From contig CAMCFN010000027.1 in assembly GCA_945874145.1 (NCBI GenBank), forward strand, positions 1 to 52,219: a stretch of DNA of 52,219 nt. Direction: 5' to 3'. This DNA comes from Akkermansia muciniphila. Its GTDB lineage: Bacteria; Verrucomicrobiota; Verrucomicrobiia; Limisphaerales; SXTU01. How positions within the stretch are numbered: the first letter of the stretch is position 1; every line of letters begins with the position of its first letter. The notes under the pieces are model-generated. The model worked only from the letters and a program-made list of their open reading frames with translations, made no database searches and was not told the origin of the DNA. The translations under genes were made by a program, and so were the position numbers. Positions 10,288-43,279 of this stretch are shown piece after piece.

Positions 10288-10292
10288 TCTTG

Positions 10293-13964: not shown

Positions 13965-13995
13965 ACTCGGACGAGATTAGATCTTCAATCGAGTC

Positions 13996-14028: not shown

Positions 14029-14097
14029 GGCGGGCGAATTCCGCGCTTGGAAATCTGCTGCAACTCCGCTCCCTTTTTCAGCGTCCAAATCACCGCC

Positions 14098-26777: not shown

Positions 26778-29144
26778 CTACTTGCTTTGGAACAACTCGC
26801 TCCCGACCACCGCGTGGATTAAGGAGCGCAGGCCGTAGTCGGTGGCTTTCGCTTCCGCCAGGATCTTGTTCACCGCCGCGTGGTCGCCGAAGCCAACCGG
26901 CTGGCCGGTCGCGTAGGTGACCAGCTTCTCGGATAGACATCGGGTGATTTGTCCGGGGTCGGTGAGCAGCAGCTTCTTGAACTCCTCGACGGTGGCGAAC
27001 TTGCGTCCGTCCGGCAGTTCGTCGCCGGCATCCACGGGCCGGCCTTCGCCGTATTGATACGCGGCCAGGTATTTCGCCAGCGGGCCGACCCGGTTGTTCA
27101 CCCAGTTCTTCCGCTCGGCCACCACGCGATACTTTTCCCGCCAGCCACCGATGACGTCGTAGTTCTCCAACGCAAACCCCGGCGGGTCTATCCGTGAGTG
27201 GCAGCCAGCGCAGTTCTCTGTCGCGCGATGCTTCGCGAGCTGCTCGCGGATGGTCGTCGCGCCGCGGATGTCCGGCTCGACGGCGGGGACGTTCGGCGGC
27301 GGCGGCGGCGCGGGCCGGCCGATGATGCGGTCCAGCACCCACACGCCACGCAGGACCGGTGAGGTCGTCGTGCCATTGGCTGTGACCTTGAGCACGCTCG
27401 CGTGAGTCAGCACGCCGCCGCGATGCCACTCCGGCTTCAGCGCCACCTTGCGGAACGCGACGCCATGCACCTCCGGGATGCCGTAGTGCTTGGCCAGCCG
27501 CGCGTTCAGCATGGCGAAGTCCGAGTCTATGAAGTTCCGCACGCTGAGGTTGTGCTTCAGCAACTCCTCGAAAAACAGATGCGTCTCGCGCACCGCCGAC
27601 CATTGCAGCAGCTCCTCGAACTCGGGGTAAAGCGTCTTGTCCGGCGTGGTGGCTTCGATGTCGCGCAGGCTCAACCACTGGCCGGTGAAGTTCTCGGTGA
27701 ACGCCTGCGCCTTGGGATGCTTCAGCATCCTCTCCACCTGCGCGCGGAGCACCTCGGGCTTGCGCAGTTCACCCTTCGCCGCCAGCGCGAGCAGCGGCTC
27801 ATCCGGCATCGTGCTCCAGAGGAAATACGAGAGCCGCGCCGCCAGCGCATGGTCATCGAGCGGGCCGGTCGGCTCGCGGAAGTAGAGGAATTTCGGCGAG
27901 GCCAGCACCGCCTTATAGCCCACACGCAACGCCGCCTCAAACGGCTGGCCCATCTCCAGAGACTTCGCCGCGACGGCAACGAACGGCTTCTCCTCGCCTT
28001 CCTTCACCGGGCGACGGAACGCGCGCGGGAGCAGCGCACGAATCAACTTCTCCGCGTCGGCGAGTGTGCCCTTCTTTGGGTCCGCGTCGCCGAACACGCG
28101 GCGGTAGCTCTCCGTCGGCCACGCCTCCGGGAACGGCCCCTCCGTCTCGACCCAGTGGACCTTTAGCCCCGGCCCCGGATACTCCGCCATCGTCTCCTGC
28201 TTGAGATACACGAAGGGCAGCGCCATCGGCATGAGCTTGACCGTGTCGTTCTTCGCGCCGAGGCGCTCCTCGAACTCGATGACCGTCGGCTTCGGTCCCG
28301 GCGGCGCGTCGAAGTAGCCGAGGTGCCGCGCGTAGTTGCCGCTCACCACGAAGTTGCCCAGCAGCAGGCCCAGCGGCAGCGGCGTCGGCGAGTTGTGCGC
28401 GGAGACGGCGATGCGAAACTTGTAGCGTCCCGGGGCGGGGGCCTTGAACTGCCGCACATCCGTCGCGCCGCCGCGAAAGAGCACCACGCCGTCGTCCTGC
28501 TTGTAAACGCCGTTGGCGAACCACTTGGGCAACGACTCATAGAAGTCGAAGCGCTCCTGCTTGCTCTCCAGCTTGTGAACGGGCGCGAGCGCCGCCGTGA
28601 TGACCGCATCCGCCGCTTCGAGATAGCGCTCCATCAGCACCGGCGAGACGTTCAACGCCGCTCCCACGTTGTCGAAGCCCTGCGCGATGGTGTCCTCCGG
28701 CAGCATCTCCTTCACCATCACGTTCACGGCGAAGAGGTCGCGCACGGTGTTCTCGTATTCCACGCGGTTGAGGCGACGTAACACCACGCGTCCGTCCGCG
28801 CGATGCTTCGCCGCCGCCTCGTCGAGCTGCGCGTTCAACTGCCGCACGAACGTCTGCACCTGAGCTGGCTCCGGGCGCGGCTCCTTCTTTGGCGGCATTT
28901 CCCCTGACTGCACTCGTGTGACGACTTCTCGCCACCGCTCGAAGGCGCTAGGTTTGGAGAAATCCGTGTCCAACTGATCGAGCCGCAAATCTCCCTTCAC
29001 CTTCTCCGGTCCGTGGCAGCGGAGACAGTGCGCTTTGAGAAACGCACTGTTCGGTGCGTTCAGTGATGCCGGCGCGGCAAACAAGTTATTCGTTCCCCCG
29101 AGCCAGCCCAGCAGCGTGAGCACAGTGATAATGCGTGTCTTCAT
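26778..29144 (-). CDS. DUF1587/1595/1592/1588/1585 planctomycete-type cytochrome protein
   Basis: 788 residues. Signal peptide (MKTRIITVLTLLGWLGG to FAAPAS), haem domain with CLRCH in HCLRCHGPEKVKGDLRL and SGEMPPKKEPRP as possible Met region, DUF1587 (RRLNRVEYENTVRDLF), DUF1595, DUF1592 (HALAARLSYFLWSTMPDE, FTENFTGQWLSLRDI), DUF1588 (GVLTHASVLKVTANGTTTSPV) with a second CXXCH (CAGCHSRIDPPGFALENYD), and DUF1585 at the C-terminus. It is a full-length paralogue of the protein at 33850-36282. Last gene of the minus-strand cluster, 15 bases after the DUF1501 gene. The proline run PAPPPPPNVP before DUF1585 is normal linker. Exported haem protein, function unknown. Confidence 0.93.
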   Translation of the reverse strand: MKTRIITVLTLLGWLGGTNNLFAAPASLNAPNSAFLKAHCLRCHGPEKVKGDLRLDQLDTDFSKPSAFERWREVVTRVQSGEMPPKKEPRPEPAQVQTFVRQLNAQLDEAAAKHRADGRVVLRRLNRVEYENTVRDLFAVNVMVKEMLPEDTIAQGFDNVGAALNVSPVLMERYLEAADAVITAALAPVHKLESKQERFDFYESLPKWFANGVYKQDDGVVLFRGGATDVRQFKAPAPGRYKFRIAVSAHNSPTPLPLGLLLGNFVVSGNYARHLGYFDAPPGPKPTVIEFEERLGAKNDTVKLMPMALPFVYLKQETMAEYPGPGLKVHWVETEGPFPEAWPTESYRRVFGDADPKKGTLADAEKLIRALLPRAFRRPVKEGEEKPFVAVAAKSLEMGQPFEAALRVGYKAVLASPKFLYFREPTGPLDDHALAARLSYFLWSTMPDEPLLALAAKGELRKPEVLRAQVERMLKHPKAQAFTENFTGQWLSLRDIEATTPDKTLYPEFEELLQWSAVRETHLFFEELLKHNLSVRNFIDSDFAMLNARLAKHYGIPEVHGVAFRKVALKPEWHRGGVLTHASVLKVTANGTTTSPVLRGVWVLDRIIGRPAPPPPPNVPAVEPDIRGATTIREQLAKHRATENCAGCHSRIDPPGFALENYDVIGGWREKYRVVAERKNWVNNRVGPLAKYLAAYQYGEGRPVDAGDELPDGRKFATVEEFKKLLLTDPGQITRCLSEKLVTYATGQPVGFGDHAAVNKILAEAKATDYGLRSLIHAVVGSELFQSK

Positions 29145-29159
29145 CGGAAGTGAGTCTCG

Positions 29160-30575
29160 TCAGGTGATCAACTCCCGAACCACTTCGCCGCTCACGTCGG
29201 TGAGGCGGTAGTCGCGGCCCGTGTTGCGATAGGTGAGCTGCTCGTGGTTTAGGCCGAGCTGGTGGAGAATCGTCGCGTGCAGGTCGGGGACGGAGACGGG
29301 CTTGTCCACCGCGTTGTAGCCGAACTCGTCCGTCGCGCCGTGGACCATGCCGCCTTTGATGCCGCCGCCGGCCATCCACATCGTAAAACCTTTCGGATGA
29401 TGGTCGCGGCCCTTGCCGTTTTCCGCGACGGGCGAACGCCCAAACTCGCCGCCCCAGATGACCAGCGTGGTGTCGAGCAGGCCGGTGGCCTTGAGGTCGT
29501 TGAGCAACGCGGCGATGGGCTGGTCCGTTTCGGCGCAGTGGAGGTCGTGGTTTTTTTTCAAGTCGTCGTGCGCGTCCCACGCCTTCGGACCTTCGTTGCC
29601 GCCGCTGTAGAGTTGGACAAACCGCACGCCGCGCTCGACGAGCCGGCGGGCGAGCAGGCAGTTGCGACCGAAGTGCTGCGTGACCGGACGGTCGAGGCCG
29701 TAGAGCTTACGAATGGACTCCGGCTCGCGTGCGACATCCACGCACTCGGCGGCGCTCATCTGCATGCGGAAGGCGAGTTCGTAGGACGCGATGCGCGCGG
29801 CGAGGCTGGTCTCGGAGGGATTCGCGGCGGCGTATTCCTCGTTCCACTGCCGGAGCAGGTCGAGGCGCGCGCGCTGCTGGCTGGCGGTGACACTCTTCGG
29901 CGGCGTGAGGTAGGCGATGGGGTCGCCGCTGGAGCGGAACGGCACGCCTTGAAAGGAGGCGGGCATGAAGCCGTTCGACCAGTTCAACGCCCCGTTCACC
30001 GGCGCGCCTTGGTGGTCGAGCAGCACGACGTAGGCAGGGAGATTTTCGCTCTCCGAGCCGAGGCCGTAAGTCACCCACGAGCCCATGCTCGGGCGGCCCG
30101 GCAGCGTGAAGCCGCTGTTCATCTGGAAGAGCGCCGGGCCGTGGTTGTTGCTCTCCGTGTGCATCGAGCGGATGACGCACAGGTCGTCCGCGTGGCGCGC
30201 GAGGTGCGGATACGTCTCCGCGATATCTATGCCGGCCGCGCCGTGCTTCGCGAAGCCGTAGTAGCTTTTCATCGCCACGTTCTGCGTTTTGCGGCCCATG
30301 AACGCGTCCTCGGGTTTCCACACGGGGATGGCCTTGCCGTGCCATTTCTCCAGCTCTGGCTTTGGGTCGAAGAGGTCCACATGGCTCGGCCCGCCATACA
30401 TGAAGAGGAAGATGACGGACTTGGCGCGCGGCGCGAAATGCGGCGGATGCGCTGCCAGCGGGTTCGTGGAGGCCGGGGCGGAGAGAGCGCCCTCCGCGCG
30501 CAGCAACGAGTTCAGCGCCAGCGCGCCGAAGCCGCCGCCGCTCAACTGAAGCATTCGTCTCCGGGTCAGGTTCAT
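29160..30575 (-). CDS. DUF1501 family exported protein (Tat signal)
   Basis: 471 residues. The N-terminus NLTRRRMLQLSGGGFGALAL is a Tat signal. The core has [51 protein letters not shown] and MAGGGIKGG. The WDHH motif of other copies is WDAHDD here with extra inserted residues (NEGPKAWDAHDDLKKNHDL). The start ATG at 30575 overlaps the stop of the upstream DUF1549/DUF1553 gene as ATGA, a strong sign of translational coupling and of these two acting as a pair. A longer open frame upstream lies inside that gene and is not coding. Expected location: periplasm or cell surface. Confidence 0.92.
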   Translation of the reverse strand: MNLTRRRMLQLSGGGFGALALNSLLRAEGALSAPASTNPLAAHPPHFAPRAKSVIFLFMYGGPSHVDLFDPKPELEKWHGKAIPVWKPEDAFMGRKTQNVAMKSYYGFAKHGAAGIDIAETYPHLARHADDLCVIRSMHTESNNHGPALFQMNSGFTLPGRPSMGSWVTYGLGSESENLPAYVVLLDHQGAPVNGALNWSNGFMPASFQGVPFRSSGDPIAYLTPPKSVTASQQRARLDLLRQWNEEYAAANPSETSLAARIASYELAFRMQMSAAECVDVAREPESIRKLYGLDRPVTQHFGRNCLLARRLVERGVRFVQLYSGGNEGPKAWDAHDDLKKNHDLHCAETDQPIAALLNDLKATGLLDTTLVIWGGEFGRSPVAENGKGRDHHPKGFTMWMAGGGIKGGMVHGATDEFGYNAVDKPVSVPDLHATILHQLGLNHEQLTYRNTGRDYRLTDVSGEVVRELIT

Positions 30576-32488
30576 TCGATGTAGATGAACTCGCTGCTGT
30601 TGAACATCACATGGGCCAGGTCCGTGAGCGCACGCTGGCGCGGCAAGTTCGTGGGCGAAGGCACCTTCGCATAGACGGCCTCGCGCGCCTCGACGAACGC
30701 CACCGCCTGCTTCAGCCGTTCCGGGCCCGCCGGCTTGGCCAGCGCGAGCAACAGCATCCGCTCGATGACACGAGCTAAGTTCTCCCCCGCCTCGGCCACG
30801 GCGCGTAGCGCGAGGAAGCCCGCCTGGTCCTCGACAAACTCGTCGTTCATCAGCACCAGCGCCTGGGTCGGCACCACACTCTGCATCCGCTCGGCGCAAC
30901 TGTCCGTGGTCGTGGGCGCATCGAAGAGTTCCATCATCGGCATGAGCAGCTGGCGCTTCGCGTAGATATAGACGCTGCGCCGCCACTGTGACGGGCCTTC
31001 GGACATAAGCACGGGCCACTTGTTACGCTGGCTGGCTGTCAGCAGGTCGGCGCGAATGCGCGGCTTGATGCCCGGCCCCCCGAGTTGCGGGTTCAGCTTC
31101 CCGCTCACTGCAAGAATACTGTCGCGCAGCGCCTCGGCTTCGAGCCGCTGCCGACTTGCGCGCCAGAGCAACGCGTTCTCCGGGTCGATCCGTTGGCCAA
31201 GCTCGTTGGGCTGCGATGCCTGCCGATACGTCGCCGACATCAACAGCAGCTTGTGCAACGCCTTCCACCCTCCGCCGTCGGCGATGAGCCGGGCCGCGAG
31301 GTAATCAAGCAACTCCGGGTGCGTGGGGCGCTCTCCGTTGAAACCGAAGTTGCTCGGCGTCGCGACCAGTCCCCGGCCGAAGTGATGCTGCCAGATGCGG
31401 TTTGCCAGCACTCGCCATGTCAGCGGGTTCTCCGGTGCGGCAATCCACTCCGCCAGCGTGCGGCGGCGCCCAGAGGACTTCGCGTCCGGCTCCGGTTCCG
31501 GAAACCGCAGCGGGTTCGACACGAGCACGAGCGGAGCCGCGGGCGGGACTACGGGCCCCTTGTTTTGCAGGCTGCCGCGTCCGAGCAAATGCGTCGGCGG
31601 CACTGCGCCCTTCGTCTCCACGAGCGCTTGCAACTTCACCACCTGCTTCGCCTTGTCCTTATCGTCGCTCTCCATGGGCACGCCGCGCTTCACCGTGCCA
31701 TTGAAGACCGCGAGCAGGCTGTAGTAATCCGCGCTCGTGACTGGGTCATACTTGTGGTCGTGGCAACGCGCGCAGCCCACGGTGAGGCCGAGGAATACCG
31801 TCGAGGTGGTGGAGATGACATCGTCCAACTCGTCGAGGCGATACTGCTCCTTGTTGTTGCCCATGTTGTCGTCGTTGCTTGGGCCGTTGCGGCAGAAGCC
31901 GGTGGCCACCAGCGTCTCCTCGTCCGCGCCCGGCACCTCGTCGCCCGCTAGTTGCTCGGCGATGAACCGCGCGTAGGGCTTGTCCTCATTGAAGCTGCGG
32001 ATGACGTAGTCGCGGTAACGCCAGGCATGCGGACGGTCGAGGTCGTTGTGGAAGCCGCTGCTGTCTGCGTAGCGCGCAAGGTCCAGCCAGTGCCGCCCCC
32101 ATCGCTCGCCGTAGTGCGGACTCGCCAGCAATCGGTCCACGACGCGTTCCCACGCTCGCGGCGCGGGGTCCTTCACAAACGCCTCTACTTCCTCCGGCGT
32201 CGGCGGCAAGCCTATGAGGTCGAAGCTGGCGCGGCGAATCAACGTGCGCCGGTCTGCTTCCGGCGAAGGTTTCAGCCCCTTTGCTTCCAAGGCCGTGAGG
32301 ATGAAGCGGTCCACTTCGGTTCGCGCCCAAGCTGCATCCTTCACGGTCGGGAGTTTGCCTGAATGCAAGGGCTGAAAAGCCCAATGTTTGCGCCCGACTT
32401 CCAATGACGGCGTCGCCGCGAAGCTGACCGCACAACCCACAGCGAGGCAGACCGCCGCTAGTCTCAGGATGGAGCGAAGCGTGTTCAA
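30572..32488 (-). CDS. DUF1549/DUF1553 protein lacking the N-terminal haem domain
   Basis: 638 residues from a TTG start at 32488, preceded by AGAGAGAG and leading straight into a signal peptide (LNTLRSILRLAAVCLAV). DUF1549 blocks: RRASFDLIGLPPTPEEVEAF, SPHYGERWGRHWLDLARYAD, and a single CXXCH in CARCHDHKYDP. DUF1553 blocks: NPLTWRVLANRIWQHHFGRG, RPTHPELLDYL, VPTQALVLMNDEFV, and the closing FNSSEFIYIE. Unlike the two other DUF1549 proteins in the window there is no PSC1 haem domain before DUF1549, so this is the short form. Overlaps the DUF1501 gene by 4 bases (ATGA). An upstream open extension to 32692 reads as low-complexity Arg/Ser and is rejected. Confidence 0.88.
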   Translation of the reverse strand: MNTLRSILRLAAVCLAVGCAVSFAATPSLEVGRKHWAFQPLHSGKLPTVKDAAWARTEVDRFILTALEAKGLKPSPEADRRTLIRRASFDLIGLPPTPEEVEAFVKDPAPRAWERVVDRLLASPHYGERWGRHWLDLARYADSSGFHNDLDRPHAWRYRDYVIRSFNEDKPYARFIAEQLAGDEVPGADEETLVATGFCRNGPSNDDNMGNNKEQYRLDELDDVISTTSTVFLGLTVGCARCHDHKYDPVTSADYYSLLAVFNGTVKRGVPMESDDKDKAKQVVKLQALVETKGAVPPTHLLGRGSLQNKGPVVPPAAPLVLVSNPLRFPEPEPDAKSSGRRRTLAEWIAAPENPLTWRVLANRIWQHHFGRGLVATPSNFGFNGERPTHPELLDYLAARLIADGGGWKALHKLLLMSATYRQASQPNELGQRIDPENALLWRASRQRLEAEALRDSILAVSGKLNPQLGGPGIKPRIRADLLTASQRNKWPVLMSEGPSQWRRSVYIYAKRQLLMPMMELFDAPTTTDSCAERMQSVVPTQALVLMNDEFVEDQAGFLALRAVAEAGENLARVIERMLLLALAKPAGPERLKQAVAFVEAREAVYAKVPSPTNLPRQRALTDLAHVMFNSSEFIYIE

Positions 32489-32537
32489 TTGACTCTCTCT
32501 ATGCTGGCGGCAAGGGCCAGAGAGCGCAACGCCCGCT

Positions 32538-33842
32538 TCACAGCATCTCCAGCCCCTGTAGCGGCCCGGTTCCCGAACTGAACTTCTCCGTCTCAATGCC
32601 CATGCGCTGGAGCATGGAGACGTAGAGGTTGCACAGCGGTGGCGGGGACTTCGGGTCGAAGGCGAGGTGCTGGCCGTGCTTGAAGCCGCCACCGGCCAGC
32701 AGCACGGGGAGGTTGCGCGTGGAGTGGTTGCTGGCGTTGCCGAGGTTGCTGCTGAAGAAAACCATCGTGCGGTCGAGGAGGCTTTCGCCCTGCTCCTCGG
32801 TCTGCTTCAGCTTGTTGAGCAGTTCGACGAGCGTCTTCATCTTCTCGATTTCGAGGGTCTTGAGCTGCGCGAGCTTCGTGGGGTCCTGGCCGTGGTGCGA
32901 GAGGTCGTGGTGGCCCTGCGACACGCCCTGAATCGGTGGCACGAGGCTGGTGCCGAGGAGGAGCATCGAGATGAGGCGCGTCGAGTCGGTCTGGAGCGCG
33001 AGGTGGATGAGGTCGAACATGCTCCGGTTTTTGCCGATGAGGTCGGCGGAGTTCAGGTTGTTCTGCGGCGGCTTCGCCTCGACCTTCGGCTTGGGCTTCT
33101 TGGACCATTCTTCGTTCGTGACCATGCGCTGCTCCAGCTCGCGGACGCTGGTGAAATACTCGTCCATCTTCTCGCGGTCGCGCGTGCCGAGCGAGGTCTG
33201 CAAGCGCCTCGCCTGCTCGCGCACGGTGTCGAGGATGCTCTGGCCGTCGCGCAAACGCCGCGCCTGTGCCTGCACTTCGTCGGGCCGGCCTTCGAGGAAG
33301 AGGCGCGCGAAGACGTTCGCGGGATACAAGTCTGGCGGCACCAGTGCGCCGCTGCGCGTCCACGAGAGTCCAAAGCCCTCCGCCGAGAGCGACAGGCTGG
33401 GGAAACGCGTCTGCCCGCCGATGCGCTCGGCGGCGAACTGGTCCACGGAAATGCTGTTGCGGAAGCCCGCGCGAATCTCCGGGTGCGGCGCGCCGGTGAG
33501 GAAGCTGAAGATGGAATCGTGGCTCGACCCGACCTCGGGATGCGCCAGCCCAGACATCACGGTGAATTCGTTGCGGAAATTCTTGAGCACGTCGAGATAC
33601 GGCGTGGGCGCGTAGTCGCGGCCCGCCTCGGTGGGGAAGAAGTTCGCGGGATGCACCCCGAGCGGCGTGCAAATGAAGAGAGCGCGGCGAATCGCCGGGC
33701 CTTTTCCAGCGGCGAAGGCACGCGGCTGGAGCGACTCCAGCACGGGCAAGGCGAGCGAGACGCCGGCAGCCCGGAGGAAGGTGCGGCGGGTGAGGGCGGG
33801 GCGAGTAAGCGGAGTGGTGGACTGAAGGAGTGGTGCGATCAT
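32538..33842 (-). CDS. DUF1552 family exported protein (Tat signal)
   Basis: 434 residues. Tat signal PALTRRTFLRAAGVSLALPV, then the DUF1552 pattern: RALFICTPLGVHPANFFPTEAG, NEFTVMSGLAHPEVGSSHDS, FPSLSLSAEG, MVFFSSNLGNASNHSTRNLPVLLAGGGF and a C-terminal CNLYVSMLQRMGIETEKF. DUF1552 proteins resemble DUF1501 in length and in the closing LLAGGG motif and are usually encoded beside DUF1592-type cytochromes, as here: the DUF1592 gene ends 7 bases upstream. No reaction has been established for the family. The ATG at 33842 gives a short N-region ahead of the twin arginines. Confidence 0.9.
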   Translation of the reverse strand: MIAPLLQSTTPLTRPALTRRTFLRAAGVSLALPVLESLQPRAFAAGKGPAIRRALFICTPLGVHPANFFPTEAGRDYAPTPYLDVLKNFRNEFTVMSGLAHPEVGSSHDSIFSFLTGAPHPEIRAGFRNSISVDQFAAERIGGQTRFPSLSLSAEGFGLSWTRSGALVPPDLYPANVFARLFLEGRPDEVQAQARRLRDGQSILDTVREQARRLQTSLGTRDREKMDEYFTSVRELEQRMVTNEEWSKKPKPKVEAKPPQNNLNSADLIGKNRSMFDLIHLALQTDSTRLISMLLLGTSLVPPIQGVSQGHHDLSHHGQDPTKLAQLKTLEIEKMKTLVELLNKLKQTEEQGESLLDRTMVFFSSNLGNASNHSTRNLPVLLAGGGFKHGQHLAFDPKSPPPLCNLYVSMLQRMGIETEKFSSGTGPLQGLEML

Positions 33843-33849
33843 GGCTGGC

Positions 33850-36282
33850 TCACTTGCTCTGAAACAACTGGCTGGCGACGACTTCGTGGATGAGGGAACG
33901 GAAGCCGTAGTTCATCGCGTGCACCTTGCCAACGATGTCGTTGACTGCGCCCCTGTCCGCTGGCTCCAGCCCTCGACCGGTGGCGTAGGTGAGGAGTTTC
34001 GTGGTGAGGGAGCGGGCGAGCTGGTCCTTGTCGGTGAGGAGGAGCTGCTTGAGTTCGTCAATGTCCCGGAAGGAGCGGCCATCGGGCAGCACGTCGGAGG
34101 GGTCCACCTTCGGCCCGTGGAGATAAGGCATCCGGCGTCCGTCAATGGTCACGGACTTGCCGTTGCCGCTCACGCGGTAGAACTCCCGCCAGCCGCCAAT
34201 CACATCGAAGCTCTCCAGCGCAAAGCCCGGCGGGTCCATCTTCACATGGCAGCTCGCGCAGGACTCCAGTTGCCGGTGCTTGGCGAGCTGCTCGCGGATG
34301 TTCTTCGTGCCGCGCGTGTCGGGCTCGAGCGTGCCGACGTTCTCCGGTGGCTTGGGCGGCGGCGTGCCGAGAATTCGGTCGAGCACCCACGCGCCGCGCA
34401 GCACAGGCGAGGTCGTCGTGCCATTCGCCGTGACCTTGAGCACGCTGGCCATGGTGAGCACGCCGCCGCGATGGCTGTCCGGCGGCAGCTTCATCTTGCG
34501 GAACTCGAACCCGCTCACGCCGGGAATGCCGTAGTGCTTCGCGAGCCGGCCGTTGAGCATGGTGAAGTCCGACGCGATGAAGTTCGCCAGGCTCAGGTCG
34601 TGCCGCAGCACTTCGGCGAAGAACAGCTCGGTCTCGCGCACCATCGAGACCTTCAGCATGTCGTCGAACTCCGGGTAGTGGATGTGGCTCGGCACCGTGA
34701 AATCAATGTCCCGCAGTCCAAGCCACTGGCCGGTGAAGTTCTCGGTGAACTGCGCCGCCTTCGGGTGGTTCAGGAGCCGCTCGGTCTGCGCGCGGAGCGT
34801 CGCTGGATGGGAAAGCTGCTTCTGCTCGGCAAGCGTGAGGAGTTCCTCATCCGGCATCGTGCTCCAGAGGAAGTAGCTCAAGCGGGAGGCCAGCGCAAAG
34901 TCGTCGAGCTTGCCGGGCTTCTCCCGGAGGAAGAGGAACTCCGGCGAGACCATCACCGCCGACAGCGCGGCGCGCATCGCCTGCTCGAAGGTGCGTTGCT
35001 CCGCCAGCTTCGCCTCGACCAGCGCGGCGAACGGTTTCACGTCCGCATCGGTCACACTGCGGCGGAACGCCCGGCGTGCGAACGAGCGCAGGATGCGGTC
35101 GGGGTCCGCGAGTGGCTCACTGGAGACGACTTCCAAGCGGTCGCGGAAAATATAGCCGGGAAACGACGCTTGCTTCATCTCACCGAAGAGGCGGCGATGA
35201 CTCTCCGGCGGCCATGTCTGGTTCAGCGGCCCTTCCACGTCCACCCAATCCACCACGAGGCCCGGCCCTTCCCACGCGTCCGCGCCGACCTTGTTCACCG
35301 TCTGCGAGGACGCGAGGCCGTAGGGCAGAATCGAGATCGAGGTGCGTGGCTCCATGTGGTCCACGAACTCGATGACCTTCGGCTTGTCCGGCGGCGCATC
35401 GAAGTAATTGACGAGGTGCCCGCGCGCGCCGCCCATGCCGCCGGAGCCGGACCACACGCGGAAGACGACGGGCTGGTTCGAGCTTTGCACGGCGGACGCG
35501 GAGATTTGAAAGCGATAGGAGCCGCGTTCCTGCGGATAAAACTTCGTCGGCCCGACCTGCTGCCACGCGGATGACGTGAAGGCCACGATGCGACCGGTGT
35601 CGTTCGTGCGGAACACCTTCTCCGTGGTCGAGCGGACTTGGTGCGAATCCGTCAGCAGGTAGCGGGTCTTGGTGGACTTGGGCTGCGGGCGGTTGGCGAT
35701 GGCTTGATTGAGCGCGGTGTCGGCCGCTTCGAGATACTTGTCGAGCAGGAAGGACGACGTGTGCAGCGCCTCGCCGATGTTGTCGAAGCCGTCGGCGGAA
35801 GAGTCCTGCGGCAGCAAGTCCCTGAGCGGTGTCTGCACGCCGAGCAGGTCGCGCACGGTGTTCTCGTATTCGGTGCGGTTGAGCCGGCGCAGCACGCCGC
35901 GGCCCTCGGCCCGTCGCTTCGCGCCCGCTTGGTTTAGCCGCGTGGATAATTGGCGCACGAACGCCTGCAACTGGGCCGGTTCCGGGCGCGGTTCCTTCTT
36001 CGGCGGCATTTCACCTGACTGCACGCGCGTCAAGACCTCCCACCAGCGTCCGAGCGTCGCAGACTTGCTGAAATCCAGGTTCAACTGGTCGAGCCGCAAG
36101 TCGCCCTTCGTTTTCTCCGGCCCGTGGCAGCGGAGGCAGTGCGTCTGGATGAAGCCGCTGGTCTGGATGGCCAGCGCTGCACCGGACTCGGCGCCGGGGA
36201 GTTCAGAAGCGCACGCGAGCGCGAGCAGCAGCGCCAGGGTGACGCTGCGCCGCGTGTGGTGGAAGACTGGCCGGGTGGACAT
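33850..36282 (-). CDS. DUF1587/1595/1592/1588/1585 planctomycete-type cytochrome protein
   Basis: 810 residues. Signal peptide VTLALLLALACASELPG after HHTRRS. Haem domain with HCLRCHGPEKTKGDLRL and SGEMPPKKEPRP; DUF1587 RRLNRTEYENTVRDLLGV; DUF1592 FALASRLSYFLWSTMPDEE and FTENFTGQWLGLRDI; DUF1588 GVLTMASVLKVTANGTTTSPV; second CXXCH in CASCHVKMDPPGFALESFD; DUF1585 at the end. It shares domain order and most motifs with the protein at 26778-29144, so the cluster holds two related copies. It is followed at 7 bases by DUF1552, the usual partner. It starts 81 bases after the pectate-lyase-like gene; no terminator was seen in that gap, so the two could be co-transcribed. Confidence 0.93.
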   Translation of the reverse strand: MSTRPVFHHTRRSVTLALLLALACASELPGAESGAALAIQTSGFIQTHCLRCHGPEKTKGDLRLDQLNLDFSKSATLGRWWEVLTRVQSGEMPPKKEPRPEPAQLQAFVRQLSTRLNQAGAKRRAEGRGVLRRLNRTEYENTVRDLLGVQTPLRDLLPQDSSADGFDNIGEALHTSSFLLDKYLEAADTALNQAIANRPQPKSTKTRYLLTDSHQVRSTTEKVFRTNDTGRIVAFTSSAWQQVGPTKFYPQERGSYRFQISASAVQSSNQPVVFRVWSGSGGMGGARGHLVNYFDAPPDKPKVIEFVDHMEPRTSISILPYGLASSQTVNKVGADAWEGPGLVVDWVDVEGPLNQTWPPESHRRLFGEMKQASFPGYIFRDRLEVVSSEPLADPDRILRSFARRAFRRSVTDADVKPFAALVEAKLAEQRTFEQAMRAALSAVMVSPEFLFLREKPGKLDDFALASRLSYFLWSTMPDEELLTLAEQKQLSHPATLRAQTERLLNHPKAAQFTENFTGQWLGLRDIDFTVPSHIHYPEFDDMLKVSMVRETELFFAEVLRHDLSLANFIASDFTMLNGRLAKHYGIPGVSGFEFRKMKLPPDSHRGGVLTMASVLKVTANGTTTSPVLRGAWVLDRILGTPPPKPPENVGTLEPDTRGTKNIREQLAKHRQLESCASCHVKMDPPGFALESFDVIGGWREFYRVSGNGKSVTIDGRRMPYLHGPKVDPSDVLPDGRSFRDIDELKQLLLTDKDQLARSLTTKLLTYATGRGLEPADRGAVNDIVGKVHAMNYGFRSLIHEVVASQLFQSK

Positions 36283-36363
36283 TGCGGTGTTCGACGGTGC
36301 GGAGCGATAAATTGCTTGAAGCGGATGTTGCCGACTGAGGCACGGCCCCCGAAAAGGAGCGCG

Positions 36364-37779
36364 CTATTGCTTCGCCGTTGACCTGACGTAGTCAGTCAAG
36401 GCTTCGAGATGCTTGTTGAACACCTCGCTGGCGAGGAACTGGAAGCCGGGAGCGAACTTGGGCTGGCCGACGAGTTTCATGCCCTCGGTGGCGGTGCTCA
36501 CCCAGCGGCCTTGCGCATCGAGGTCGCGGAGGATTTGGCGGACTTGCGCTTCGGTTGGGGCTTTCGGCTGTGGAGCCTTTGCCTTGCCCGACTGCGCGGT
36601 GGCGAGGGCCTGCTCCAACTGCTCGACGTGCGCGGCGTTCTTCCAGCCGTAGTGCTGCGGCACCTCGGCATCGCTGTTGGTGAGTTGGTAGTCCGAGGTC
36701 ATGTAGAGGGGCTTGTTGGTGCGCAGCTCGTAGTAGCGGGCGAGGCGGCCATCGGCGAGGCGCGAGCGCTTGAGCCACGCGAGCGCGCGGGGGATTGGCT
36801 CCAGATACTTCGCGTCGCCGGTGACGCGGTGGACTTGCAGCAGGGTCTCGATGGCGTCCTGCGATTCGTGGCCAGCGAGCGCGGGCGGCTCGAACTTGCG
36901 CGCCCAGATGGGTCGCGTCTTGAAATCGTATTGCTGCGCCCAGCCGGGCTGCGGCTCGGGCAACTGCGCGAGCAGGAGGAAGTCGCCGAGCTTCGCGAGC
37001 GCAGTGCGGCAGCGCTCGTCTTGGTAAATCGTCCAGCCGTCCTCCAGCATTTGCGCGACGTAGGTGCAGAGGTCGTCGTTGAGCGTTGGCATGTTGTAGT
37101 AATTCTTGAGGCGGTTCTCGGTGCGCCACTCGTAGTCGGGGAAGCTGGCCTTCACCGGCGGATACTGCGGTGCAGGTCCAATCCAGACCTGTGGGAACGC
37201 GCCATTCGGATGCTGCGCGGCGAACACCGCCTTCCGCGCGAACTCGGTGGCCTCGTGAATCGCCCCGTGCTTGAAGCCGAGTGCCTGGTCCGCGTGCATG
37301 AGGAAGCGCAGCGCGCTCTGCGAGATGCCGTCGTCGAAGGTCGAGTAGTTGCGCCTGCGCGACTTGCCGTTGCGATACTGCCCGGCCTTCGCACCACGCG
37401 GGTCAAAGTCAATCACCTGCGCCCAGCCGCCGGACTGGAGCTGACCGAATACGAGCGCTTCGGCGGCGGCTTGCGCGGCGTCGAGGTAAAACTTGTCCCC
37501 GGTGGCAGTGTGCGCCTTGAGGAACGCCATGCCGACGGCAGGGGTGCCGGGCGGCTGGATGAAGATTTGGTCGTCAGTTGCCTTGCCCTCGCCCCAGCGC
37601 TGTCGGAGGTCGAGCGAGGTGTAATAAACGTAGCCGCCGTGCGCCGCCGCCTTCGCTCGGTAGAACTCAGCGGCGCGCTTCATGCCGACGATGGCTTGCT
37701 CGCGGAGTGGTGACTCGGCGGCCAAGGCCGCGATGGGCAGGTAGAACGAGGCGAGCAGGAGGAAACGCAGTGGGTTCAT
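36364..37779 (-). CDS. Pectate lyase family 10-like exported protein
   Basis: 471 residues. Signal peptide MNPLRFLLLASFYLPIAALA. The rest is helical with the blocks of Pec_lyase (PL10): SGGWAQVIDFDPRG, RNYSTFDDGISQSALRFL, HPNGAFPQVW, YYNMPTLNDDLCTYVAQML, and an extra C-terminal domain. PL10 enzymes cleave polygalacturonate by beta-elimination with Ca2+ and a catalytic Arg. I cannot map the catalytic Asp/Arg residues with confidence, so activity on pectin is inferred from family. It starts 3 bases after the stop of the upstream secreted protein and precedes the DUF1592/DUF1552 genes, linking polysaccharide attack to the haem-protein cluster. Predicted periplasmic or extracellular. Confidence 0.78.
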   Translation of the reverse strand: MNPLRFLLLASFYLPIAALAAESPLREQAIVGMKRAAEFYRAKAAAHGGYVYYTSLDLRQRWGEGKATDDQIFIQPPGTPAVGMAFLKAHTATGDKFYLDAAQAAAEALVFGQLQSGGWAQVIDFDPRGAKAGQYRNGKSRRRNYSTFDDGISQSALRFLMHADQALGFKHGAIHEATEFARKAVFAAQHPNGAFPQVWIGPAPQYPPVKASFPDYEWRTENRLKNYYNMPTLNDDLCTYVAQMLEDGWTIYQDERCRTALAKLGDFLLLAQLPEPQPGWAQQYDFKTRPIWARKFEPPALAGHESQDAIETLLQVHRVTGDAKYLEPIPRALAWLKRSRLADGRLARYYELRTNKPLYMTSDYQLTNSDAEVPQHYGWKNAAHVEQLEQALATAQSGKAKAPQPKAPTEAQVRQILRDLDAQGRWVSTATEGMKLVGQPKFAPGFQFLASEVFNKHLEALTDYVRSTAKQ

Positions 37780-37782
37780 GGG

Positions 37783-40200
37783 TCACTCATAGACGAACGT
37801 CACGGTCGCGGTAGTTTCACGATCCGCGACGGCGCGGACCCAGTAGGCTGTGTAGGCCGCTGGGAAGGTGTGTTCCGTCGGCTTGCCCGGCTCGACGATA
37901 AACTCGCGATACGTCACCCACATTCCCGTGCCAGTGAGGTCCGCTTCGAGGCGGATTTTCACGGACTCCTTCGCGGTGTGTGAGAGCGTGACGCGCTTGC
38001 GGTCGTAGCCGGTCATCAAGTAGGCGTCGCTCGGCTGGTCGGCTTTCACGGCCGAGTCCTTCCACGGGCCACCGATGCCGCGCGGCTTGCCGAGGTGCCA
38101 CAGGTCATCCACCGCGCCGACCCAGAGCGCGCACTTGCCGTCGTCGCTGCGGACGACGTGCTCGCCGGCGGGTGCGTCGGCTCCGAGGCCGGACAGGACG
38201 AGCAGGCCACGATAGCTCGCATAGTCCTTGATGCGGCGGTTGTGCGTGGTGATGGGGCGGACCTTCGCGAAGCCACCCGCGTTGTCGGCGGGCAGCTCGT
38301 AGAACGTCCCCGCAGCATTGAACATGTCGCGCTCCGTGCAGACCTCGCGGCAGATGCGTTCGTCGCCGAGCGGGCCGGGGCGCTCGAAAGACGCTTCGCC
38401 CTTCGGCAAGCGCCAGCGGCCCTTGTTGTCCACGTAGAGCACGGAGGCGGCGTCCAGGCTCAGCACGTTCTGCGGAATGGCGACGTTCTTCTTCATCCAC
38501 GCGATGCCGGGCGCGTCATTGGTCTTGCGCAGCTTCAGCTCGCTGTCGAGGTCGTAGCAGCCGAGTTCGCCGGAGGCATCGCTGGCGACGAAGCGCAGGT
38601 TTTTGAACTCCGCGCCACGCGCGTAGAGCAGGCCGCCGTTGGCTCCGGCTTCACCGGGCTTGGCGAGGCTCGCGAACATCGGAGCCGCCGTGATGGGCCG
38701 CTCGTCCGCGCTGCGATAGTGGAAGAACGCGGTGGCCTTCGCGCAGTCGCGGCTGGCCTTCACGCGCACCCACACGCCCTTTTCTTGCGCGCTGAACTCC
38801 ATCCACGCGTAGCCGTTGGCGGCCACTTCCACGTCGCGCAGCTTGGTCCACTGGTCGTTGCCCTGGGCATTCACTTCGAGCGTGAACGTCACGGCTTGGC
38901 CGGATGACTGCGCGAGATGCAACGTCCGATGGGTGTAGCCGGAGAACATGTAAGCATCGCTGGGCACGCCCGCTTTTACCGGCTCATCGAACCACACCGC
39001 ACCCCGACCGATGGCGGGCCCAAGCTGGTCGAGGCGCGCCGGCTCGGTGAACCACAGGTTCGACTGCGAGCGGCCCGGTCCGACGATTTCGCCCTTGGCC
39101 TTGCGCTTGTTGAGGAACTCGCTCTTTGCCGTGTCATCGCAGCCGAAGACGAGCTGGTCATTCCAGCGACAGAAGTCGCCGATGACTTTCAGGTAGTTCG
39201 AGCGCGGGGCGAGGCCGGCGGAGTTTCCCGCGCTGAAAGTCTTGGGGAATTTCCAGAACGTGCCGTGCATGGTCATCAGGAACTCGCCGCCTCCGATCTC
39301 GCGGATGCGCGGCCACTCGGTGTTCCAGCCGTGCGCGCCATCGTAGCTGTGCGAGCCTTTGGGCAGGCGGAAGCTGTGCCACTTGCCAGCATCAAGCACC
39401 TGCAGGATTAGCGAGCGATGGTCCCAACCGATGCTCCAGACCGGGTCGCGGTCGGGCTGTTCGTTGCCATAGATGCCGCCGGGGCCGGTGACCTCGGTGA
39501 ACTGGTTGCGGCGCACGACGGTCCACGCGGCGGCCTTGCCGTCCCACTCGGCCAGCACGCCGCTGGGCACGGCGGGATTCGACAACGCTGCCTGCGCGTG
39601 GTCGCCGTTGTTCGCGTAGATGATCCGGCCGAAGCCGGAGTAAAGCCCCTTGCCATGGTAGCCGGGCAGGTTGGAGTGACGGCCTTCCTTCTTCTGCTCG
39701 TCGGCCCACAGCTCCGTTACGGCGAGGGTTTTCACATCAATCTCGTAAAGGCCCTCCTCCATTGTCGCAGAGTAGATCTTCCCCGCCGGATCGGTCAGAT
39801 GACGGGCATTGCCCGTGGGCCGGCCGAACATCTGCGAGTAAGGAATCACGCGCACCTTGCCCTGCGCATCCACCGCGTATGGTCCGATGAAAAGCTGTTG
39901 GGATTCGCGATGAATCATCCGGTTCGCCGGCGTGCCACCGATGCTCTCGGGGCGGATGATCTGTTCCAGCGCGGGCGTGATTTCGTAGAGCTTGTCGGAC
40001 GAGCCGCGCGGCATGTGCGGCGCGTAAGTGATGACCCACAGCCGCCCCGCCCACGGCACCACTGCGCCAGTGCCGCATTCACCCTCGTTGTTGAACATGG
40101 CGAGGTGCGGGTAGATGCCGGAGACGCTGTGGGGTGCGGCGATGGTAACTTGACTCCACAAGGTGCAAGTCAGAGCTAGCAATGACAGGTTCTTTCGCAT
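37783..40200 (-). CDS. Large secreted protein, propeller-like, function unknown
   Basis: 805 residues from the ATG at 40200 (signal peptide MRKNLSLLALTCTLWSQVTI). An ATG at 40212 is equally possible, and longer upstream frames overlap the divergent gene and lack signal character. The N-terminal half has repeated strand patterns with Trp and Gly turns (GRLWVITYAPH, GRIIYANNGDH, NQLVFGCDD), suggesting a beta-propeller. Two beta-sandwich modules with DAYM(F/T)(S/T)GY motifs (SDAYMFSGYTHRT and SDAYLMTGYDRKR) are internal duplicates that end in a YWVRAV-type strand. No catalytic motif is recognised. First gene of the seven-gene minus-strand run. It may bind or cleave sugar chains together with the lyase; family not assigned. 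Confidence 0.68.
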   Translation of the reverse strand: MRKNLSLLALTCTLWSQVTIAAPHSVSGIYPHLAMFNNEGECGTGAVVPWAGRLWVITYAPHMPRGSSDKLYEITPALEQIIRPESIGGTPANRMIHRESQQLFIGPYAVDAQGKVRVIPYSQMFGRPTGNARHLTDPAGKIYSATMEEGLYEIDVKTLAVTELWADEQKKEGRHSNLPGYHGKGLYSGFGRIIYANNGDHAQAALSNPAVPSGVLAEWDGKAAAWTVVRRNQFTEVTGPGGIYGNEQPDRDPVWSIGWDHRSLILQVLDAGKWHSFRLPKGSHSYDGAHGWNTEWPRIREIGGGEFLMTMHGTFWKFPKTFSAGNSAGLAPRSNYLKVIGDFCRWNDQLVFGCDDTAKSEFLNKRKAKGEIVGPGRSQSNLWFTEPARLDQLGPAIGRGAVWFDEPVKAGVPSDAYMFSGYTHRTLHLAQSSGQAVTFTLEVNAQGNDQWTKLRDVEVAANGYAWMEFSAQEKGVWVRVKASRDCAKATAFFHYRSADERPITAAPMFASLAKPGEAGANGGLLYARGAEFKNLRFVASDASGELGCYDLDSELKLRKTNDAPGIAWMKKNVAIPQNVLSLDAASVLYVDNKGRWRLPKGEASFERPGPLGDERICREVCTERDMFNAAGTFYELPADNAGGFAKVRPITTHNRRIKDYASYRGLLVLSGLGADAPAGEHVVRSDDGKCALWVGAVDDLWHLGKPRGIGGPWKDSAVKADQPSDAYLMTGYDRKRVTLSHTAKESVKIRLEADLTGTGMWVTYREFIVEPGKPTEHTFPAAYTAYWVRAVADRETTATVTFVYE

Positions 40201-40312
40201 GACGTGGACCATTTCACTTTTCAACGGGGACTGTCGAGTGAGCAGGGCCTTGGGTGGTGGGGCGGGCGTCTTTCCGATTGACGCGGCGGCGGGCTTGGCG
40301 AGATTTTGCGGC
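40201..40312. promoter_or_regulatory. Divergent promoter region of the lyase/PSC cluster and the esterase
   Basis: 112 bases separate the start of the seven-gene minus-strand run from the plus-strand esterase gene. Both promoters should lie here if the two units are co-regulated. I could not fix a -35/-10 pair or an operator by eye. Confidence 0.4.
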
Positions 40313-41902
40313 ATGCAAAAATGTCGTTTGTCCGCTCGTGCATTTCTTCGTTTCAAGGCCTTGGCCGCTGCTTTCGCGGTGTTGGCCACCGTCAACCTCC
40401 GCGCCGAGGTCAAGCTGCCGACGATTTTCTCCGACCACATGGTGCTTCAGCAGGGCATAAGCGTGCCCGTCTGGGGCTGGGCGGACGAGGGGGAGCTGGT
40501 GGTGGTCCAGTATCGCGACCAGGTCGTGCAAACGCGGGCGAGGAACGGCAAGTGGCAGGTGAAGCTCGGCTCCATGAAGGCGGACGCCAGACCGGCCACG
40601 CTGCTGGTGAATGGCAGCAACCGAATCGAGTTGAAGAACGTGGTCGTGGGCGAGGTGTGGATTGCCAGCGGTCAGTCGAACATGCAGTGGGCGCTGCGCC
40701 AGACCGTGAACTGGCAGGCGGCCGCCGCCGCGTCGGCGAATCCCAACCTCCGCCTGTTCTACGTGCCGCGCGTGAAGGCGCCGCAGCCGGTGGCGGACAT
40801 TCAGGGGCAATACAACAACGCCAAGCCCGCGTGGACGGTGGCTAGCCCGGAGACGACGCCAGATTTTTCGGCGGTGGCCTACTTCTTCGGCCGCGACCTG
40901 CAAAAGGCGCGTGGTGTGCCCGTGGGCGTCATCCACACGTCCTGGGGCGGTTCGCCGGCCGAGGTGTGGATGAGCGAGCGCGTGCTGGCGGGCAACCCAT
41001 CCTACAAGAAGGACATCCTCGACAACTATCAGGTGGCGACGAAGAACTTCGAGGCGGCCAAGGCGCGCTTCCCAGAGCTGCTCGCCAAGGCCAAGCAGTC
41101 CGGTGCCAAGGCTTTACCGCAGGCTCCGCGCGAGCCGTGGCGGCCCACCGAGCTTTACAACTCCATGATTCATCCGCTCCTGCCCTTCGCCATTAAGGGG
41201 GCGATCTGGTATCAGGGCGAGTCCAATGCGGGCCGTGCCTGGCAGTATCGCACGCTCTTCGCGGACATGATCCAGAACTGGCGGCAGGATTGGAGGCAGG
41301 GAAGCTTCACCTTCCTCACCGTGCAGCTCGCCCCGTTCACGGCGATCTTGCCGGAGCCGGCGGACAGCACGTGGGCGGAGTTGCGTGAGGCGCAGATTAT
41401 CGCCAGCAAGAACGTGGGCAACGCCGGCACGGTGGTCATCACCGATGTGGGTGACGAGAAGGACATTCATCCGCAGCAGAAGGAGCCGGTGGGCACGCGG
41501 CTCGCGCTGGTGGCCCGCAAGCTGACCTACGGTGAAGACGTCGTCGCCAGCGGCCCGACCTTCAAGGGCGTGAGCTTCAGCGGCGGCAAGGCAATGGTGA
41601 CCTTCGGCGATGTGGGGCAGGGCTTGGAAGCCCGGGGCGGCGATCTGAAGGGCTTCACCATCGCCGGGGCGGACGGCAAGTTCGCATGGGCCAACGCGAA
41701 GCTCGTCGGCAAGGACAAGGTCGAGGTGTCCAGTTCCGCCGTGGGCAAGCCCAACGCAGTCCGTTTTGGCTGGGCGAATTACCCCGTCGTGAATCTGTGG
41801 AACAAGGACGGCCTGCCCGCCCATCCCTTCCGCACCGATGATTTTCCGCTCTCGACCAAGCCCAAGCCGGTCGTTGCGGCCAAGGCCGACGCCAAGAAGT
41901 AG
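40313..41902 (+). CDS. Sialate O-acetylesterase-type (SASA) exported esterase
   Basis: 529 residues. Signal peptide after MQKCRLSARAFLRFKA (core LAAAFAVLATVNL, cut near RAEV). An N-terminal beta region with FSDHMVLQQG and VWGWADEGE, then the SGNH/SASA catalytic domain: Ser122 in IASGQSNMQWALR, IHTSWGGSPAEVW, IKGAIWYQGESNAGRA, and DVGDEKDIHPQQKEPVGTRLA with the probable His, followed by a C-terminal beta domain. It removes O-acetyl groups from sugars; given the divergent lyase gene, acetylated pectin or xylan is more likely than sialic acid. It is a different type from the fused copy at 18848. The ankyrin gene follows after 6 bases, so the two are co-transcribed. Confidence 0.9.
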   Translation: MQKCRLSARAFLRFKALAAAFAVLATVNLRAEVKLPTIFSDHMVLQQGISVPVWGWADEGELVVVQYRDQVVQTRARNGKWQVKLGSMKADARPATLLVNGSNRIELKNVVVGEVWIASGQSNMQWALRQTVNWQAAAAASANPNLRLFYVPRVKAPQPVADIQGQYNNAKPAWTVASPETTPDFSAVAYFFGRDLQKARGVPVGVIHTSWGGSPAEVWMSERVLAGNPSYKKDILDNYQVATKNFEAAKARFPELLAKAKQSGAKALPQAPREPWRPTELYNSMIHPLLPFAIKGAIWYQGESNAGRAWQYRTLFADMIQNWRQDWRQGSFTFLTVQLAPFTAILPEPADSTWAELREAQIIASKNVGNAGTVVITDVGDEKDIHPQQKEPVGTRLALVARKLTYGEDVVASGPTFKGVSFSGGKAMVTFGDVGQGLEARGGDLKGFTIAGADGKFAWANAKLVGKDKVEVSSSAVGKPNAVRFGWANYPVVNLWNKDGLPAHPFRTDDFPLSTKPKPVVAAKADAKK

Positions 41903-41908: not shown

Positions 41909-43279
41909 ATGCCGACTTCTTCTCCAGCAAAGCAGGCGCGCAGCTGGTTTCGCTGCCTGAGTGCTGGGCTCTTGGTGGGTTGCTGGCTGGCATCAGCTGC
42001 TCAGGCCGGCGAGATCCACGATGCCGTGCTCGCGCATGACGTGCAGCGGGTGCGGCAGTTGTTGCTGGAGAATCCTGACTGGGTGAACCAGCCCACCGAA
42101 AAAGGAGACACCCCACTCTACATTGCCACCTTCCGCCGTTACTCAAAGCAGATGATGCCGCTGCTGCTGGAGTTTGGCGCAGAGGTGAATCCACCACCCA
42201 ACCAGCGCGGCGAGACCCCGCTCTCCATCGCCCGGGAAATCAACCTTCGGCAGGGCGCCGACTTGTTAATTCGGGCGGGGGCGAAAGAAGACGACCGCTC
42301 CCGGGGCGCTGAGATCCGCTACCTGGCAGGGAAGCGCGACGCCACGGAACTAGCCGCGCGGTTGGCCCGCCACCCGCACCTCGTCAATGCGCGCGACGCG
42401 TTTCAGCAGACCGCGCTGATGCTTACGATGCTGGATGAGCGACCGGATGCGAACGTTGCCCAGACGTTGCTTCGGCTCGGAGCGGACCCTAATGCCACCA
42501 ACCTCTTCGGCGGCACTCCCTTCTCCGCTGCGGTGGAGCGCGAGCAGGAGGGCATGGTCGCGCTGCTCCGCCAGCATGGGGGGAGGGAGACGCCGATGAG
42601 CCGCAGCGCGCCACTGAGAATCGCCCTGCAAAAGGGGCTGCTGAATGAAGCCCAGCAGATGTTGAAGGAGCATCCGGAATGGGCTGGGGAGCATGATTAT
42701 TTGCGCCGAAGCCCGCTGTATTTGGTGAGCAGCCGGAGCCTGCCGTTGGTGAAGTTGCTCCTCCAGCACGGGGCGGATGAGAATGCCCGGGACTTCGGCG
42801 ACAACACGCCCTTGCACGCTGCCGCCGGGGCTGGGAATGTGGAAATCGTCGGTGCGCTGCTTGCCAAAAAAGCCGATGCACGGGCCGTGAACCGCCAGCG
42901 GGTGACGCCCATTTTGAGCTCTGCCAGCAGCGGTTCGGTGCCCATCGTCGAGATGTTGTTTGCGGCGGACGCGGACCTCAAGGCCGCTGACAACCTCGGA
43001 GAAACCGCGTTGCATCGTGCGGCCACCGGCGGTCATCTGGACTTGATCAAGTTCCTGCTGGCGCGCGGCTTCGCGGTGGATGTTTTGGATCGGCAGCGGC
43101 AGACCCCGCTTCACCAAGGAGTCTTGGCGGCGCGCACTGAAGCGGTGAAATTGCTCCTCGCCCATGGGGCCAATCCGACGCTGGTCGACGTGAACGGTGA
43201 CAGTCCGCTGCGAGTTGCCGAGCGCAACAAACGCGAGGAACTCGTGAAGCTGCTGCGCGCTGGATCGCCTGCGAAGTAG
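41909..43279 (+). CDS. Exported ankyrin-repeat protein
   Basis: 456 residues with a signal sequence (CLSAGLLVGCWLASAAQAG). The rest is made of ankyrin repeats, most clear in the C-terminal half: DNTPLHAAAGAGNVEIVGALLAKKAD, ETALHRAATGGHLDLIKFLLARG, QTPLHQGVLAARTEAVKLLLAHGAN and DSPLRVAERNKREELVKLL. The N-terminal repeats are weaker but show TPLYIAT, TPLSIA and TPFSAAV. Ankyrin domains bind other proteins; the partner is unknown. It follows the esterase gene directly, which suggests a role near the cell envelope. Export implies a periplasmic interaction rather than a eukaryotic-host effector, though that cannot be excluded. Confidence 0.88.
   Translation: MPTSSPAKQARSWFRCLSAGLLVGCWLASAAQAGEIHDAVLAHDVQRVRQLLLENPDWVNQPTEKGDTPLYIATFRRYSKQMMPLLLEFGAEVNPPPNQRGETPLSIAREINLRQGADLLIRAGAKEDDRSRGAEIRYLAGKRDATELAARLARHPHLVNARDAFQQTALMLTMLDERPDANVAQTLLRLGADPNATNLFGGTPFSAAVEREQEGMVALLRQHGGRETPMSRSAPLRIALQKGLLNEAQQMLKEHPEWAGEHDYLRRSPLYLVSSRSLPLVKLLLQHGADENARDFGDNTPLHAAAGAGNVEIVGALLAKKADARAVNRQRVTPILSSASSGSVPIVEMLFAADADLKAADNLGETALHRAATGGHLDLIKFLLARGFAVDVLDRQRQTPLHQGVLAARTEAVKLLLAHGANPTLVDVNGDSPLRVAERNKREELVKLLRAGSPAK

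Follow-up and report, generated by a model that had tools for sequence, protein, structure and literature searches.

Among the questions that this locus raises, the central one is whether seven closely spaced genes encode one dedicated machine or are parts of separate origin that lie side by side. The genes share one strand of contig CAMCFN010000027.1 of an Akkermansia muciniphila assembly, analysed over its whole stretch of 52,219 nucleotides (hereafter, the window). They encode a secreted protein, a homologue of family PL10 pectate lyases, two PSCyt3-type proteins (PSC3a and PSC3b; DUF1592-type), a compact PSCyt2-type protein (PSC2; DUF1549/1553) and two proteins of the families DUF1552 and DUF1501. 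In the original prediction, the lyase, a divergent esterase and the PSC genes formed an undescribed system, with a redox- or haem-dependent step in the degradation of an acetylated polysaccharide. The best reading that we can offer is instead a mosaic, in which two modules of two genes each, PSCyt3-DUF1552 and PSCyt2-DUF1501, both widespread, are joined by an orphan second PSCyt3 gene, where the modules are extracytoplasmic carbohydrate-redox pairs; taken jointly, we regard these two statements as evenly balanced between true and false.

The layout itself was borne out. Start positions confirm seven minus-strand genes arranged head to tail, separated by 3, 81, 7, 49, -4 and 15 bases from the secreted protein down to PSC3b, and the named families were recovered by Pfam over their cut-offs. 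A terminator scan listed no site in the 81-base gap, which says little, as the scan returned fewer sites than its shuffles (13 against a mean of 16.2). Both PSC3 proteins exceed the cut-offs for all six of their domains (Table 1), and the PSCyt2-type protein, which carries a CXXCH motif and lacks a PSCyt1 domain, does so for PSCyt2 (303 bits) and PSD1 (286 bits). Export of two families by the twin-arginine translocation (Tat) pathway agrees with the twin-arginine starts of the DUF1501 and DUF1552 proteins (TRRRML and TRRTFL). The count of four haem-motif products had to be corrected, as five CXXCH motifs are spread over three products (2+2+1).

That the PSC genes come in pairs is apparent from this genome alone (4.58 Mb in 157 contigs, 82% complete). 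It holds 195 matches to PSC-system families (25 to PF07624, 63 to PF07583, of which 62 exceed the cut-off, 83 to PF07394 and 24 to DUF1552), some of them fragments at contig ends, so that PSC neighbours are to be expected by chance. From typical gene lengths, we estimate that these genes take up about 8-9% of the genome's DNA. A same-strand PSCyt3 gene lies within 4 kb of 13 of the 15 listed DUF1552 genes (9 of the 24 matches are unlisted), and a same-strand DUF1501 gene within 4 kb of 43 of the 62 PSCyt2 genes, one sub-cut-off PF07583 match (C39) having been dropped from the count. With just two matches in the whole genome, DUF1800 was rejected as the regular companion of DUF1501 here. Mixed runs also occur elsewhere, as in contig C20, where PSC3, DUF1552, PSC3, DUF1552, PSC2 and DUF1501 genes follow one another on one strand.

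The cluster dissolves when it is followed through related genomes. Orthologues of the DUF1501 protein, 83-97% identical, occur in eight further genomes of the genus (59% for the best match after these); the compact PSCyt2 gene adjoins them in all eight, and PSC3b follows the pair in G010 only. The PSC3b orthologues of G002, G005 and G010 stand in three differing settings. Six genomes hold DUF1552 orthologues (81-97%), which adjoin PSC3a in G034 and G027, are separated from it by some 3 kb in G004, precede PSCyt2-DUF1501 in G005, occur without PSC3a or PSCyt2-DUF1501 in G010, and precede PSC3b at a contig end in G002. These differing arrangements mark the run as a mosaic with three or more components, seen in the relatives as PSCyt3-DUF1552, PSCyt2-DUF1501 and a lone PSCyt3 gene. 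The parts are ordinary, and their arrangement is unusual yet not conserved. In G005, the full PSC3b gene is preceded by a short stretch (L061:5370-5504) 80% identical to residues 26-70 of PSC3b, perhaps the remnant of a duplication.

Does the lyase belong to this assembly? Its kinship is clear, with 61.5 bits for Pec_lyase (PF09492; cut-off 22) and profile matches to the solved PL10 structures 1r76 (E 2e-24) and 1gxm (E 2e-18), so that by profile the homologue is of the PL10 kind; pectate lyase activity is putative, the score for TIGR02474 (76.9 bits) being under the equivalog cut-off of 189.8. A dedicated lyase-esterase-PSC system acting on an acetylated pectic polysaccharide from one transcription unit would explain the tight gene spacing. 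The neighbourhood in the sister genome G002 is also alike, with SDR, ankyrin, SASA, secreted protein, lyase and PSC3a genes and, past a contig break, DUF1552 and PSC3b genes without the PSCyt2-DUF1501 pair between them; moreover, PL10, SASA and ankyrin genes stand together in G001. However, the window's own genome holds a single match to the lyase at E 1e-10 against 25 PSCyt3 genes, so other PSC clusters do without it. Close orthologues (74-91%) exist in five other genomes (G001, G002, G005, G010 and G012). In the stretches read around the lyases of G001, G010 and G012, none of the window's PSC-system proteins was matched, and in G005 a sulfatase and a DUF5122 protein stand within the 4.5 kb that separate PSC3b from the lyase. 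Only in G002 are PSC genes directly beside the lyase, and there the lyase is broken: the 147 bases that code for its most conserved block are lost, the frame is shifted by one base and the end is missing. The gene for the secreted protein is kept beside it, as is PSC3a with a match over residues 41-810, although an assembly error behind the broken gene is not wholly excludable in this fragmented metagenome-assembled genome (MAG) of 950 contigs. The lyase of G001 has one in-frame stop.

A wider survey of the best 80 of 501 lyase relatives speaks likewise against a coupling. Some PSC-system gene occurs within 10 kb of the lyase at 22 of the 80 loci; density within 2.5 kb is 12 in 349,482 bases (0.34 per 10 kb) and further away 30 in 789,588 bases (0.38 per 10 kb), so that near is not above far and no enrichment beside the lyase was found under a midpoint rule that works against long adjacent genes. 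The dedicated system can point to two loci with a tight same-strand PSCyt2-PL10-DUF1501 order (L141 and L155) and to three where a same-strand DUF1501 gene lies within 500 bases upstream of the lyase (L106, L111 and L115). The esterase fails as a recurring neighbour too, with SASA and ankyrin proteins at one of the 80 loci each. Within the genome itself, 22 stretches around PSCyt3 and DUF1552 genes hold 65 open reading frames (ORFs) within 1.5 kb, in which no family occurs more than three times, and Pec_lyase and SASA are not among the 25 listed of 76 neighbour families, which leaves them at most one member each; beyond 4.5 kb there are 46 ORFs, three with a sulfatase. We consider a dedicated lyase system quite improbable. 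The lyase is probably just a neighbour of the pairs. The secreted protein was likewise rejected as a functional partner: four genomes in which DUF1552 has no match (G014, G022, G025 and G037) carry homologues of it, and five homologous loci in other genomes (L056-L060) lack matches to the window's PSC proteins and lyase. Lyase, secreted protein and SASA-ankyrin pair would then be separate neighbours, whether or not they have a substrate in common with the modules. Two of the lyase loci merit record on their own account: the orthologue of G012 (L025:462-8749) sits amid sulfatases and a DUF7133-HEAT-cytochrome c protein, and L108 (CALQJI020000002.1), titled as a Klebsiella pneumoniae MAG, holds a lyase 75% identical to that of the window; the title seems wrong.

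The partner proteins DUF1552 and DUF1501 are homologous on profile comparison (one hhalign comparison, probability 98.2, E 5e-14). A predicted model of the DUF1552 protein (predicted local distance difference test, pLDDT, 87.4) gave 31 PDB matches at E<=0.001, the best at 1.2e-5, including sulfatases, choline sulfatase, lipoteichoic acid (LTA) synthase and phosphoglycerate mutase, enzymes of the alkaline phosphatase superfamily, which places the predicted fold within it. By this homology and by its own profile (LTA synthase, E 0.0085; local sulfatases, probability 86.7), DUF1501 is assigned the same fold, its C-terminal half being alignable with the superfamily. Single-sequence PDB searches with DUF1552, DUF1501, the secreted protein and PSC3a found nothing relevant, and neither did a search with the DUF1552 profile.

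Conservation was read from alignments of 43 of 45 DUF1552, 24 of 24 DUF1501, 38 of 39 PSC3, 17 of 19 PSC2 and 8 of 13 lyase rows. In DUF1501, H149, D338, H340, E381 and H396 are invariant (24/24); in DUF1552, H312, H316 and H373 (43/43), with H317 in 41 and H108 in 33 of the 43. E381 of DUF1501 aligns with a metal-binding Asp of sulfatases, and its H149 with H108 of DUF1552, both near the position of the sulfatase nucleophile in a weak part of the alignment. Type I sulfatases carry the formylglycine motif C/S-x-P-S-R. In the H149 and H108 columns, weakly aligned as they are, the C-x-P-S-R motif is absent, and unlike sulfatases the two families have a conserved His near the nucleophile and a Gly at the first Asp pair, again partly in weak alignment. 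A His at this place suggests an unusual active site, with metal bound and the usual nucleophile missing.

The other half of the PSCyt3-DUF1552 module is a cytochrome by its motifs. The CXXCH motifs of PSC3a (residues 49-53 and 675-679) are invariant in the 38 PSC3 sequences (C49/C52/H53 and C675/C678/H679), as are M92 and an MPP motif that may supply an axial Met. In the predicted model of PSC3a (pLDDT 88.2), PSD3 and PSD5 are separated by a beta-sandwich whose structural matches are jelly rolls, CBM6 and CBM15 among them, so PSCyt3 proteins seem to hold a jelly roll like that of carbohydrate-binding modules (CBMs). The helical haem core of the model matched none of the listed structures, a viral fold library gave nothing useful for PSC3, and profile searches with PSC3 returned just weak matches to class I cytochromes c (best E 0.027).

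The PSCyt3-DUF1552 pair is also found outside the Planctomycetota-Verrucomicrobiota-Chlamydiota (PVC) bacteria. Of 72,556 plasmid records, 16 match PSC3 (12 Sphingobium, 2 Novosphingobium, 1 Planctomyces and 1 Pseudoalteromonas), and all 16 hold DUF1552, 15 by search and that of Pseudoalteromonas by annotation and Pfam; the two genes are adjacent in the seven records checked. The Pseudoalteromonas gene, 16 bases before DUF1552, encodes a fusion of three CBM26 modules, a glucose/sorbosone dehydrogenase (GSDH; E 1e-40), a cytochrome c and the domains PSD3, PSD5, PSD4 and PSCyt3, in which PSD2 was not found. In Sphingobium herbicidovorans, cytochrome c' and cytochrome b561 genes follow the pair, and in TomTYG65 a b561 gene does, so that two of the three Sphingobium loci with annotation have b561.

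These contexts, with the jelly roll of the PSC3 model, lend support to the haem-dependent carbohydrate step of the original prediction, as distinct from its coupling to the lyase. The pairs probably carry out extracytoplasmic redox reactions of sugars. Each module would consist of a c-type cytochrome protein and a Tat-exported partner of the alkaline phosphatase superfamily, both outside the cytoplasm. PSC3 would use its jelly roll to bind carbohydrate and its second haem core to take up (or give) electrons in sugar oxidation; the PSCyt1 haem could hand these on to the respiratory chain, and the partner would act on that substrate too, in a step that depends on metal. A more ambitious proposal unites PSCyt3-DUF1552 and PSCyt2-DUF1501 as variants of a single extracytoplasmic machine of two components for carbohydrate redox, whose partner lacks the usual nucleophile and keeps a conserved His/Asp/Glu metal site, whose haem core is the X132 domain of Cellvibrio and Teredinibacter, a fold with no PDB match, and which spans PVC bacteria and Proteobacteria, plugged into differing sugar dehydrogenases, CBMs and membrane cytochromes and filling the share of this genome estimated above; all this together we put forward as tentative, and rather doubtful in its full extent.

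Several observations weigh against carbohydrate-redox pairs. Of the 25 PSCyt3 genes, 12 show no DUF1552 gene within 4 kb, in part because of contig ends and the unlisted DUF1552 matches. Foldseek TM-scores for the DUF1552 model are low (0.23-0.43), and the family gave no sulfatase match by sequence or profile. The jelly-roll matches of PSC3a also include TNF- and C1q-like proteins, homology between PSC3 and PSC2 could not be demonstrated (13% probability), and the pair of Sphingobium TomMM7A is followed by a glyoxalase-like gene and no cytochrome b. To our knowledge, none of the four module families has a known activity.

Two other roles for the same proteins have to be considered. PSC3 and PSC2 could be electron donors to lytic polysaccharide monooxygenases (LPMOs) or other oxidases rather than sugar oxidases, as proposed for Cellvibrio Cbp2D, whose X183 domain reduces LPMOs and whose loss impairs growth on cellulose according to the accessible parts of PMC8981238 and PMC12542752. 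However, the Pfam scan of the window genes revealed no LPMO (the rest of the genome was not searched for AA10), the Teredinibacter results appear, in the accessible text of PMC10916295, inconsistent with the role first supposed, and the identity of X132 with the PSC3 core is one that we infer; a donor role is in our judgement unlikely. A stress or envelope role unrelated to carbohydrate would agree with the link of PSC/PSD genes to stress in Rhodopirellula baltica (PMC2754498, accessible part), and is improbable in view of the fusions to CBMs, also present in the accessible part of PMC5615132, and to sugar dehydrogenases. Sugar redox by the pairs remains our preferred account.

Table 1. The seven-gene run and its divergent neighbours, in window coordinates
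Feature	Coordinates	Strand	Start	Remarks
PSC3b	26778..29144	-	29144	PSCyt1+PSD3+PSD5+PSD4+PSCyt3+PSD2; two CXXCH
DUF1501 protein	29160..30575	-	30575	Pfam 545 bits; twin-arginine N-terminus
PSCyt2+PSD1 (DUF1549/1553), compact	30572..32488	-	32488 (TTG)	one CXXCH
DUF1552 (HXXSHH) protein	32538..33842	-	33842	272 bits; twin-arginine N-terminus; predicted alkaline-phosphatase-superfamily fold
PSC3a	33850..36282	-	36282	same domains as PSC3b; two CXXCH; CBM-like jelly roll in the predicted model
PL10-like lyase homologue	36364..37779	-	37779	relatives 1r76, 1gxm; probably an accessory neighbour
Secreted protein, no Pfam family matched	37783..40200	-	40200	homologues in genomes without DUF1552
SASA-type esterase	40163..41902	+		divergent from cluster; SASA 64.6 bits; adjoins lyase in G001 too
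Exported ankyrin-repeat protein	41909..43279	+		divergent; sole Ank_2 match of the genome

Elsewhere in the window, a second SASA-domain protein is encoded at 18848-21124, outside the cluster, and more PSC-system genes lie at 7095-17259 and 23340-24764, with DUF1501 at 7095 (-), 8863 (+) and 23340 (+), and with PSCyt2+PSD1 proteins that do carry PSCyt1 at 10362 and 14047 (+). The gene at 25469-26740 for an FMN_bind and 4Fe-4S (NosR-like) membrane protein is convergent with PSC3b in the window and in G002; it was rejected as a cluster member, as it is found elsewhere across the genus. In L161, one of its homologues and a lyase are 415 bases apart.

Few unexplained genes of Planctomycetota and Verrucomicrobiota are as abundant as those of the PSC type. 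Should the pairs prove to be modules for carbohydrate redox, much of what is unexplained in these genomes would find its place in carbon turnover, whereas the cluster as a lyase system would matter little. The partner fold, the mosaic and the redox contexts make PSC gene function easier to test, and the short Proteobacterial versions of Sphingobium and Pseudoalteromonas offer tractable hosts and fusions for testing the reaction.

How much of this was already known? In the accessible text of He et al. 2017 (PMC5615132), the PSCyt2 and PSCyt3 genes of freshwater Verrucomicrobia each stand beside one of two unknown families and occur near sulfatases and putative pectin lyases, CBM fusions of PSC-type genes are described, and a role in carbohydrate metabolism is suggested. 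Those genes share their domain families and pairing with the cluster, which therefore cannot be called an undescribed system; the accessible text does not name the partner families, though the search listing for the paper counts DUF1501 and DUF1552 three times each. A literature search for DUF1592 with DUF1501 returned no paper. A second comparison is with Cbp2D of Cellvibrio japonicus and TERTU_3803 and TERTU_2913 of Teredinibacter, for which the accessible parts of PMC8981238, PMC12542752 and PMC10916295 describe a DUF1587 domain, two cytochrome domains with CXXCH (X183 and X132), CBMs and a role in cellulose use. X132 would correspond to the PSC3 core, and TERTU_3803 has a pyrroloquinoline quinone (PQQ)-dependent glucose/sorbosone-dehydrogenase-like domain (PMC10916295), as in the Pseudoalteromonas fusion; these accounts, as far as accessible, mention no DUF1552 partner, and the likeness is one of description, through the DUF1587 and DUF1592 names. 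The families, their pairing and the suspected carbohydrate role were thus known from PMC5615132, which as far as accessible covers neither how the partners are related and folded nor the occurrence of the pair beyond PVC bacteria; what is added here is that relationship and fold, the mosaic nature of the run, the absence of a lyase coupling, and the sugar-dehydrogenase and cytochrome b contexts.
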